Of a stretch of DNA of 64,000 bases, positions 15,649 through 19,155 are shown piece after piece; the stretch's first letter is position 1; every line of letters starts with the position of its first letter. Below the pieces are notes generated by a model. That model was not told the origin of the DNA and searched no databases. It saw only the letters and a program-made list of their open reading frames with translations. A program made the position numbers and the translations under genes. Location of the stretch: contig JACQFQ010000061.1 in assembly GCA_016199985.1 (NCBI GenBank), forward strand, positions 93,008-157,007, in the 5' to 3' direction. Source of the stretch: Verrucomicrobiota bacterium. Lineage in GTDB: Bacteria > Verrucomicrobiota > Verrucomicrobiia > Limisphaerales > UBA11320.

Positions 15649-17136
15649 ATGTCGAGGAACCGCTCTGGCTCAGGTTTCGGATGGATCGTCCTGCTCCTTC
15701 TCATTGGTGGGGGCGGCGGCGGCTACTTCTGGTATCAACGCGGAAACGCCCGGAAGCCGCTCGAATACCGCATCGCGAAGATCACGCGCGGCGAGATCAC
15801 GCAGGCCGTCACGGCCAGCGGCCAGGTCACCCCTTACGTCACCGTCCAGGTGGGCAGCCAAGTGAGCGGGAACATTCAGGCCATCCACGTCGACTATAAC
15901 TCCACGGTCACCAATGGCCAGCTGCTCGCCGAGTTGGAGCCGTCCTCCTTCGCCGCCTCGCTGGCCCAGGCCGAGGGCAACCTCGCCGACGCCCAGGCCG
16001 CCCTCAAGCTCAGCGAGCTGAAGCTCAAGCGCGCGAAGGATCTTCAGGCGCTCAACCCGCTGAAGGAGTACGAGGACTCCCAGATCGAGGTCGAGAGCTC
16101 CAAGGCCCGCGTGAAGATCCAGGAAGCCCGGTTGCTGGAAAGCCGCGTGAATCTCGCCCGGGCGAAGGTGTATTCCCCGATCGACGGCACCGTCATCTCT
16201 CGGAACATGGATGTCGGCCAAATCGTCGCCGCGAGCTTCAACGCGCCCGTGCTCTTCCAGATCGCCAACGATCTTCGCAAGATGCAGGTGCAGGCGATGG
16301 TGTCCGAGGCCGATATCGGAGGCGTGGAGGAAGGCCAGGATGTTTCGTTCAGCGTGGACGCCTTCATCAACCGCACTTTCCGCGGACGCGTGGACCAGGT
16401 TCGCTTCTCCCCGACCACCAACCAGAACGTGGTGACCTATGTGACCGTGATCTCCACCGCGAACGACGACCTGAAGCTGCGTCCCGGCATGACCGCGAAC
16501 GTGTCCATCATCACGGCCCGCCAGAAGGACGTGCTCCGGATCTCGAGCGGCGCGCTGCGGTTCCGTCCCCCGGACGGCGCGAACGTGAAATCAAACAGCG
16601 TGCCGGGTGTCGCGAAGGACAAGGACGCGCCCAAGTCCGTGGCTTCGGCCTCCGGCTCGGGTTCCGGCGATGCCGGGCCTTCCCTGGAGGATCTTCCTGA
16701 CGAGATTCGGCAACGCGTGCTCTCGCGCTTCGACAAGAACGGCGATGGCAAGCTCGACGCCGAGGAGACGAAGGCTTGGCGCGAAGAGCGCGAGAAACGC
16801 GGTCGCGGCCCCGGCGGCGGAGGCGGCGGACGTGGGTTCGGAGGCGGCGGCGGCGGCGGCTCGCGAGGCAGCGGCGGAGCAGGACAGCAAAGCAAGACGG
16901 TGTACAAACTGGAGATGATCGATGGCCCCAATGGGGAGAAGATTCAGCAGCTGACGCCCGTGGAAGTGAAGCTGGGAATCTCCGACGGCACGATGACCGA
17001 GGTGAAGGAAGGCCTGACCGAGGGCGACGAGATCGCTGTCGGCGTGATGGGGCTTGCGCCGACGGGGGCCGCTGGCATGGGGGCGCGCCCGCCCGGACAG
17101 CAGAATCCTTTCGGCGGCCCTGGAATGCGACGCTAG
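15649..17136 (+). CDS. MacA-like periplasmic adaptor with EF-hand and polyglycine insert
   Basis: A 495-residue membrane fusion protein linking a MacB-type ABC transporter to an outer-membrane exit duct. Residues 9-28 are the membrane anchor. TASGQVTPYVTVQVGSQVSG opens the lipoyl domain, 104-170 is the coiled-coil hairpin, and VYSPIDGTVISRNMDVGQ closes the lipoyl half. A beta-barrel domain follows. The usual short linker is replaced by an insert of about 105 residues (311-417). It holds an EF-hand loop (DKNGDGKLDAEE, 362-373), a charged helix and a Gly/Arg-rich run (386-412). Then the membrane-proximal domain resumes (GISDGTMTEVKEGLTEGDEI). The insert is the odd part and could bind calcium. 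First gene of a three-gene operon. Confidence 0.9.
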   Translation: MSRNRSGSGFGWIVLLLLIGGGGGGYFWYQRGNARKPLEYRIAKITRGEITQAVTASGQVTPYVTVQVGSQVSGNIQAIHVDYNSTVTNGQLLAELEPSSFAASLAQAEGNLADAQAALKLSELKLKRAKDLQALNPLKEYEDSQIEVESSKARVKIQEARLLESRVNLARAKVYSPIDGTVISRNMDVGQIVAASFNAPVLFQIANDLRKMQVQAMVSEADIGGVEEGQDVSFSVDAFINRTFRGRVDQVRFSPTTNQNVVTYVTVISTANDDLKLRPGMTANVSIITARQKDVLRISSGALRFRPPDGANVKSNSVPGVAKDKDAPKSVASASGSGSGDAGPSLEDLPDEIRQRVLSRFDKNGDGKLDAEETKAWREEREKRGRGPGGGGGGRGFGGGGGGGSRGSGGAGQQSKTVYKLEMIDGPNGEKIQQLTPVEVKLGISDGTMTEVKEGLTEGDEIAVGVMGLAPTGAAGMGARPPGQQNPFGGPGMRR

Positions 17137-17163: not shown

Positions 17164-17928
17164 ATGCCGCCCATCATCCAGCTCGAGAAGATCCACAAGA
17201 CCTACCGCAACGGCGACATGGCCGTCCATGCCGTCCGCGGCGTCGACCTGCAGATCGAGAAAGGCGAGTTTGTCGCGGTGATGGGCGCCAGCGGATCCGG
17301 AAAGTCGACGCTGATGAACATCCTGGGCTGCCTCGATCAACCCTCGGAGGGCCGTTACCTTCTGGATGGAATCGATGTTTCGAGGTTGGGACGCGATGAG
17401 CTGGCCGAGATCCGCAATCGCAAGCTGGGTTTCGTCTTCCAGGGGTTCAACCTGCTCTCCCGCACCACGGCGATCGAGAATATCGAGCTGCCGATGTTTT
17501 ATTCGCGTCCGCCCTTGAGGGGCAGGGAGCGGCGCGAGCGCGCGAACAAGGCGCTGCAGCTCGTCGGCCTGGGACCGCGCGGCGACCATCATCCCAACCA
17601 GCTTTCCGGCGGACAACAGCAGCGCGTCGCCATTGCCCGCGCCCTCGTCATGCAGCCGGCGCTTCTGCTCGCCGACGAGCCGACGGGAAACCTCGACAGC
17701 CGCACAAGCATTGAAATCATGGGCGCCTTCCAGGAGCTGAACGAGCAGGGCATCACCATTGCCATGGTGACCCACGAGCTGGACGTGGCCCATTACGCGC
17801 GTCGGACCGTCATCATGCGCGACGGGCTGATCCTGACGGACAAGCCGGTGGAGTCCCGTCTCGACGCGAAAGTGGAACTGAAGCGGCTGGAGGCCACCCA
17901 TACCCAGACCTTGACGCCGTCCGGATAA
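17164..17928 (+). CDS. MacB-type ABC transporter ATP-binding protein
   Basis: A 254-residue ABC ATPase of the LolD/MacB group. Walker A is GASGSGKSTLMNILGCLD, the Q-loop is FVFQGFNLLSRTTA, the signature is LSGGQQQRVAIARAL and Walker B is LLLADEPTGNLDS, followed by MVTHELDVAHYA with the switch His. In Enterobacteria MacB fuses ATPase and permease; here they are separate genes. It lies 27 bases after the adaptor gene and 9 bases before the permease gene. Substrate is not predictable: macrolides, peptides or lipoproteins are all possible for this family. Confidence 0.93.
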   Translation: MPPIIQLEKIHKTYRNGDMAVHAVRGVDLQIEKGEFVAVMGASGSGKSTLMNILGCLDQPSEGRYLLDGIDVSRLGRDELAEIRNRKLGFVFQGFNLLSRTTAIENIELPMFYSRPPLRGRERRERANKALQLVGLGPRGDHHPNQLSGGQQQRVAIARALVMQPALLLADEPTGNLDSRTSIEIMGAFQELNEQGITIAMVTHELDVAHYARRTVIMRDGLILTDKPVESRLDAKVELKRLEATHTQTLTPSG

Positions 17929-17937
17929 ACCTCGCCT

Positions 17938-19155
17938 ATGATCTTTTTTGTCACCCTGCGCATCGCCCTGAGAGCCCTGAAGCGAAACCTGCTGCGCACC
18001 CTCCTGACCATGCTCGGCATCATCATCGGCGTTGCCGCGGTGATCGCGATGGTCAGCATCGGCAACGGCGCGAAGGCGATGGTGGAGGCCCAGATCGCCA
18101 GCCTCGGGCAGAACGTGATCATGGTCTTCTCAGGAAACTTCTCCCGTGGCGGCGTCGGGATGGGCTTCGGCAGCATGAGCTCCCTGACCGCGGACGACTA
18201 CGCGGGACTCCAGAAGGAGGTGCCCGAAGTCAGCGCGGTCAGCCCCGAGGTTCGAACCGGCGCCCAGGTGACTTTCGGAAACCAGAACCTCAGCACCTCG
18301 ATCCTGGGCGTCAGCGTCGACTACATCGAGATCCGGTCCTGGCCGCTCGCGGGCGGCGCCAATTTCACCGACCAGGATGTTCGCAACGCGAACAAAGTGG
18401 CGTTGATCGGCAGCACAACGGCCAAGACATTGTTCGGCGACGGCGATCCGGTGGGGCAGATCATCCGGATCAAGAATGTTCCTTTCGCGGTCGTCGGGCT
18501 GCTGGGAACGAAGGGGATATCGATGATGGGCAGCGACCAGGACGATGTGCTGATCATCCCTTACACGAGCGCGATGCGCCGGCTGGCCGGCGTGACGAGC
18601 TTCCGCAGCTTCACGATTCAGGCCCGCGGACCTCAAACCATGGCGGCCGCGCAGGAGCAGATCCGCGACCTGCTCCGGCAAAAGCATCGATTGCCCCCGG
18701 CCCGCGACGACGATTTCACGGTTCGCACCCAGCAGGAGATTTCCGACACCGCCACCTCGACGTCCAATGTCATGAAGTGGCTCCTGCTTTCGGTGGCCTG
18801 CGTCTCGCTGCTGGTGGGAGGCATCGGGGTGATGAACATCATGTTGGTGAGCGTGACGGAGAGGACGCGCGAGATCGGCATCCGCATGGCGGTGGGCGCC
18901 AAGGGGCGCGATGTCCTGGTTCAGTTTCTCATCGAGTCGATCGTGCTGAGCCTCATTGGCGGACTGCTCGGGATCATTCTCGGAGTTGTGAGCTCGAAGG
19001 TCGTCTCCGGGCTGATGAACTGGCCGACGTTGATCTCGCCCGAGTGGATTTTCATCGCCTTCGGCGTGAGCGCGCTCGTCGGGATCGGGTTCGGCTACTA
19101 TCCGGCCCATAAAGCCGCCCAACTCGACCCGATCGAATCGCTCCGATACGAGTGA
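17938..19155 (+). CDS. MacB-type ABC transporter permease (FtsX-like)
   Basis: A 405-residue permease. Transmembrane helix 1 ([21 protein letters not shown]) is followed by a large periplasmic MacB_PCD domain (about 50-270) with [14 protein letters not shown] and [14 protein letters not shown]. Three C-terminal helices are the FtsX domain ([21 protein letters not shown], then [55 protein letters not shown]). It ends in DPIESLRYE, the standard tail. With the ATPase and adaptor it forms a tripartite mechanotransmission exporter. An outer-membrane TolC-type partner is not encoded nearby. Confidence 0.93.

Follow-up and report, generated by a model that had tools for sequence, protein, structure and literature searches.

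The closest described systems are the MacA adaptors of the MacAB-TolC efflux pumps (E. coli, 5nik and 9qgy; A. actinomycetemcomitans, 4dk0). MacA works as a hexamer, and in E. coli its membrane-proximal (MP) domains touch the periplasmic domain of MacB (PMC5985334), the MP domain being critical to stimulating the transporter (PMC4338810). The adaptor hairpin carries a TolC-docking motif, RxxxLxxxxxxS, at its tip (PMC3391258). Some adaptors bind metal; those of metal pumps, CusB and ZneB, bind the metal substrates of their own pumps (PMC4338810).

Calcium loops of the Dx[DN]xDG type are found in many unrelated folds, and a described pattern is that of homologues distinguished only by a longer loop that bears the motif; the cases given in the part of that survey used here include no adaptor protein (PMC3123361). 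The part used of the work on EfhP of Pseudomonas aeruginosa reports calcium binding by this bacterial EF-hand protein, which has two EF-hands and is no pump adaptor (PMC9132961).

Here we describe a MacA-type adaptor that resembles EfhP in having an EF-hand and fits the longer-loop pattern, with a single EF-hand in an insert of its MP domain. A literature search found no description of an efflux adaptor with an EF-hand.

Results

A MacA-type pump operon

The window, which is the whole 64,000-nucleotide stretch of Verrucomicrobiota DNA that was analysed, contains an operon of three plus-strand genes in the order adaptor, ABC ATPase and MacB-type permease (Table 1). The ATPase and the permease with MacB_PCD and FtsX domains lie directly 3′ of the adaptor, as they do in the relatives checked. 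MacA of MacAB-TolC shares with the window adaptor the domain order, N-terminal transmembrane (TM) helix, fold and an operon with a MacB-type transporter, whereas the function of MacB is split over two genes in the window.

Table 1 Features of the adaptor operon in window coordinates
Feature	Position	Strand	Details and basis
MacA-type adaptor	15649..17136	+	495 aa, ATG start; TIGR01730, HlyD_D23, AF2 model, Foldseek
MP-domain insert (residues 306-414)	16564..16890	+	Model; alignment against relatives
EF-hand unit with flanks, LEDLPDEIRQRVLSRFDKNGDGKLDAEETKAWREEREKR	16684..16800	+	Model; homologs of the unit in 8 further adaptors
12-residue calcium-type loop DKNGDGKLDAEE, residues 362-373	16732..16767	+	Sequence; EF-hand_5 E 2e-4
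Gly-rich tether C-terminal of the EF-hand, imperfect GGN repeats	16801..16878	+	Sequence; residues 385-409 at pLDDT <50
MacB-type ATP-binding subunit	17164..17928	+	ABC_tran E 4e-34
MacB-type permease with periplasmic core domain	17938..19155	+	MacB_PCD E 5e-53, FtsX E 5e-21

The adaptor scores 141 bits against TIGR01730, the general RND_mfp subfamily (cut-off 94.9), and matches HlyD_D23 at E 2.8e-21. Because it scores 129 bits against the NCBIfam MacA equivalog PRK11578, under the cut-off of 342, we call it MacA-type rather than MacA proper. The top NCBIfam match of the ATPase is MacB at 253 bits, also under the MacB cut-off. The AF2 model has a mean pLDDT of 83, with 10-residue blocks of the core mostly at 93-98, and its top Foldseek matches are MacA of MacAB-TolC (9qgy at E 8e-26, and 5nik). 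The N-terminus has a predicted hydrophobic helix at residues 10-32 and no Cys, pointing to a TM helix and not a lipobox.

No TolC gene was found among the genes adjoining the operon, and the OEP domain has 26 matches elsewhere in the genome. The three gene products presumably form a MacA-type pump with a TolC-like channel encoded elsewhere. The tip of the adaptor hairpin, RAKDLQALNPLKEYEDS at residues 128-145 (16030-16083), is 2 residues shorter than in relatives through a deletion. It keeps R128 and L132 of the docking motif, but the Ser/Thr is replaced; the strict motif occurs in 176 of 261 relatives. No plasmid-borne relative spans 80% of the adaptor.

An insert within the membrane-proximal domain

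Compared with MacA of MacAB-TolC, the window adaptor has an extra insert of about 110 residues that carries the EF-hand. The first-pass annotation had placed about 105 inserted residues, at 16576-16904, between the barrel domain and the MP domain. We confirm an insert, but its boundaries differ (Table 1) and the end given at first overruns into the next strand. Its location also differs, since in the AlphaFold model the insert exits after strand 282-299 and re-enters at strand 415-425, both within the MP domain. By comparison with known adaptors, the first half of strand 282-299 would be the last barrel strand.

Residues 319-343 and 385-409 have a pLDDT below 50, and the insert is predicted to place a short helix-loop-helix, held by a flexible tether on each side, at the end of the adaptor that faces the inner membrane. 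The charged helix and Gly-rich run described earlier are both there, the helix following the loop and the run being encoded by the Gly-rich DNA after it. Most of this tract (16815-16878) is an imperfect tandem repeat with a period of 24, 2.7 copies and 78% matches, and its length varies from species to species. The model also favors the flexible arm proposed at first, which had been thought able to reach peptidoglycan or a partner. As the arm sits in the MP domain, the MacB end of the adaptor, a partner on the MacB or membrane side fits better than a distant one.

A single EF-hand between the tethers

The canonical calcium loop claimed for the insert was borne out at the level of sequence, with the open reading frame running through the putative loop. 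Its expected ligands are D1, N3, D5, K7 (through the backbone), D9 and E12, and with Gly at position 6 and a hydrophobic residue at 8, DKNGDGKLDAEE has every feature of a canonical loop (ligands at 1, 3, 5, 7, 9 and 12, Gly 6, hydrophobic 8). Predicted helices at residues 351-363 and 371-383 flank it, and with a pLDDT of 65-82 over 351-380 the helix-loop-helix of the window adaptor is modeled at moderate confidence.

The Pfam EF-hand_5 match reaches 21.1 bits, below the curated gathering cut-off of 25.9, although it ranks second of 26 EF-hand_5 matches in a whole-genome scan. A PROSITE-like EF pattern arose in 483 of 200,000 shuffles of the window insert (0.24%), by which a chance pattern was ruled out, and in 9 of 40,000 shuffles of inserts from relatives. 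The adaptor has one EF-hand and no paired one. Lone EF-hands usually require a partner for good calcium binding.

Occurrence of the insert and the EF-hand among relatives

Inserts were excised from 256 distinct relatives using profiles of the flanking core domains. The relatives are mostly from the window's phylum, with some from Nitrospirae, Acidobacteria, Ignavibacteria, Bacteroidetes and others, and because the sample favors close kin, the following counts are not population frequencies. Insert length ranges from 3 to 222 residues with a median of 88, and is at least 60 in 167 of the 256. A Gly run of at least 4 occurs in 103 inserts, an LTPEQ-like helix motif in 89 and GPFAGxPxxPW in 22. 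The EF-hand was found in 7 of the 256, or in 9 of about 263 after a further search added L304 and L305.

The insert slot is thus ordinary in the family, and only rarely does it hold an EF-hand. This loop of the MP domain forms a slot that is hypervariable across the family and usually filled with a tether, a short helical element and a Gly-rich tether. The earlier statement that MacA proteins lack such a feature therefore fails for the insert, yet it holds for the EF-hand, whose rarity also ruled it out as a general MacA feature.

The nine EF-hand adaptors come from several families and classes, all of one phylum. Besides the window protein (L001), they are L002 of the window's genus (58% identical to the window protein), L029 and L288 of other families in the window's order, L033 and L238 of one genus in another family of its class, L304 and L305 of another family in its class, and L031, which is listed as the same phylum only and so belongs to another class. 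Two of the four other genomes analysed from the window's genus (L003 and L004) have a different insert without the EF-hand. Since these two and most of the family lack it, calcium cannot be a general need of this pump type. In the L033 and L238 genomes the EF-hand adaptor occurs alongside at least one further adaptor of MacA type. It also sits on a long branch, and the two features together may point to horizontal transfer.

Conservation of the calcium loop

All nine adaptors keep D1, N3, D5, G6, the hydrophobic residue at 8, D or E at 9, and E12, a conservation that is partly by construction because members were picked with the EF pattern. An independent search of the inserts with an EF-unit profile found no degenerate EF-hands, members scoring about 70 bits and the rest at most 11.5. 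Poor conservation of the EF-hand residues among close homologues had been named as what would speak against the module. The ligands are kept wherever the EF-hand occurs, but most of the family has no EF-hand at all.

Three pairs (L001-L002, L033-L238 and L029-L288) were compared codon by codon. Identity is 83, 92 and 83% in the loop, respectively, 64, 72 and 58% in the EF unit, 52, 61 and 40% in the rest of the insert, and 58, 73 and 60% in the core. With 12 loop codons per pair, pN/pS is 0.08, 0.24 and 0.12 in the loop, against 0.47, 0.48 and 0.64 in the rest of the insert. Silent sites of the EF unit are saturated in L001-L002 and L029-L288. Because in all three pairs the loop is far more alike than the remaining insert sequence, it appears to be under purifying selection, tighter than on the rest of the insert and the core average; the codon counts make this a strong hint rather than a precise estimate. 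The conserved loop and the lack of degenerate copies also stand against a decaying relic.

Phylogeny and likely source of the EF-hand

In core-only trees the EF-hand adaptors cluster, with no shuffle as low. They form two groups, one of which is L029 with L288 (support 100/100), while the others group with the non-EF pair L003/L004 (96/93, and 86/96 in another tree). In a 69-row tree, the AU test rejected a grouping of the seven EF-hand adaptors known at that stage that left out L003/L004 (p 0.017). With 59 rows, L304 and L305 now included, it did not reject the larger of the two groups with L003/L004 left out (p 0.19). Nor did it reject a single clade of L003/L004 and all EF rows (p 0.53 and 0.35). 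Either the insert was exchanged in L003/L004, or the EF-hand was gained more than once. That the insert of L003/L004 was swapped as a cassette is suggestive only.

The EF unit of the adaptor type recurs in 2-4 copies in small proteins with signal-peptide-like starts, two of them (L205 and L207) in the window genome. In such exported tandem EF-hand proteins (L207, L324, L332 and L345) the unit, approximately LLxxFDKNGDGKLDxxExxAMR, matches that of the adaptor. These proteins are free-standing and belong to no pump, and they have 2-4 copies where the adaptor has one. The adaptor unit probably derives from proteins of this exported, tandem kind in the phylum, where many small exported proteins (L322-L345) repeat one EF-hand unit 2-4 times in tandem. 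In the window genome, EF-hands adjoin long Gly-rich runs in the apparently exported L201, L203 and L206 (by eye, L206 is PQQ-propeller-like and L203 CotH-like), so the adaptor is not alone in combining an EF-hand with a Gly-rich stretch.

The same slot without an EF-hand

Non-EF MacA-type adaptors of the phylum (L003, L010 and L071) have a long insert in the same slot, ending in a Gly-rich tether, and in those checked the operon is the same as in the window. They differ in having no calcium loop, many carrying a conserved GPFAGLPxPPW plus LTPEQK block instead. The model of L071 has helices at 351-360 and 363-383 with a pLDDT of 91-96 in this slot, preceded by the block GPFAGLPVMPW at 75-94. 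In L071 at least, the slot is predicted to hold a helical hairpin, and a calcium loop would join the helices in adaptors with the EF-hand. Charged helices in general look alike, and the filling of one slot by helices in both types may be convergence.

The inserts of L003, L004, L010, L014 and L071 share GPFAGLPxPPW...ERRRPTxxER...LTPEQKxKYxxIMAEMRARFAQ, a possible docking element. Over 81 residues the L003/L004 insert shares about 75% identity with the insert of the distant L010, against 56% between the cores.

Discussion

Our best reading, to which we give about an even chance, is a metal-stabilized helical hairpin tethered beside the periplasmic domain of MacB. In the window lineage and a few related ones, the helical element of the slot would be one EF-hand of the tandem kind in the exported proteins of the phylum. 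Calcium or another suitable cation of the periplasm would usually be bound in the loop, and this metal would keep the helix pair folded into a compact, charged hairpin. The tethers would let the hairpin touch the periplasmic domain of MacB, a neighboring adaptor or the membrane surface, and it would do with metal what the metal-free hairpin of relatives does without. Metal binding, near-constant occupancy and contact with a partner are what we infer beyond the fold, and the choice of partner is a guess, as the model is of a monomer and the tethers leave the placement of the insert relative to the core loose.

The first-pass annotation had suggested that calcium could gate adaptor assembly. Such a gate, in which binding and release of calcium at the EF-hand switch assembly or the stimulation of the MacB ATPase so that the pump senses envelope calcium, seems rather unlikely to us. 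The selection acting on the loop would suit it, as would the attachment of the EF-hand to the domain that controls MacB stimulation in E. coli (PMC4338810), but long disordered tethers on either side transmit a conformational switch poorly, and the gate would have to be lineage-specific, given that most relatives, two of the window's genus included, run the same operon without an EF-hand. Envelope calcium is usually high enough for an EF-hand to stay loaded. The parallel with the L071 hairpin is our main ground for favoring a structural role rather than a dedicated calcium gate. Alternatively, the slot may tolerate nearly anything and have captured, with no job for it to do, a repeat unit of an exported EF-hand protein. 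Contents as different as those of the 3-222-residue inserts, and the abundance of EF units in exported proteins of the genome, agree with a neutral passenger, which should nevertheless decay; decayed EF-hands were not seen, and all ligands are kept across pairs at or near saturation of silent sites, even as the adjoining insert diverges. We regard it as unlikely.

Single EF-hands normally pair up, and metal-bound EF-hands of adjacent protomers could pair into a latch that locks the ring or dimers of protomers. The hexameric action of MacA (PMC5985334) and the residue count of the tethers, which makes them long, would allow this, yet adaptors without the EF-hand evidently assemble too, and we consider a latch very unlikely. 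Extremely unlikely is a role in metal cargo or sensing, in which the hairpin passes calcium or a lanthanide to the pump in the manner of CusB and ZneB with their substrates (PMC4338810). The Asp at loop position 9 would be in keeping with it, but this position varies (Glu in L002), the operon is of MacB type and not a metal RND pump, and it has no evident metal-related neighbor.

In a bolder reading, which we hold to be improbable, a lineage of MacA-type pumps has six tethered EF-hands ringing the adaptor at the MacB interface, where metal-dependent pairing or docking tunes ring assembly or ATPase stimulation. Tripartite efflux by such pumps would then respond to metal. Should the unit bind calcium and prove important, it would link a MacB-type pump to envelope calcium, and two point mutations would serve as a simple on/off handle near the MacA-MacB interface. 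The variable MP-domain slot, filled with different helical modules, offers a clear case for how adaptors gain parts.
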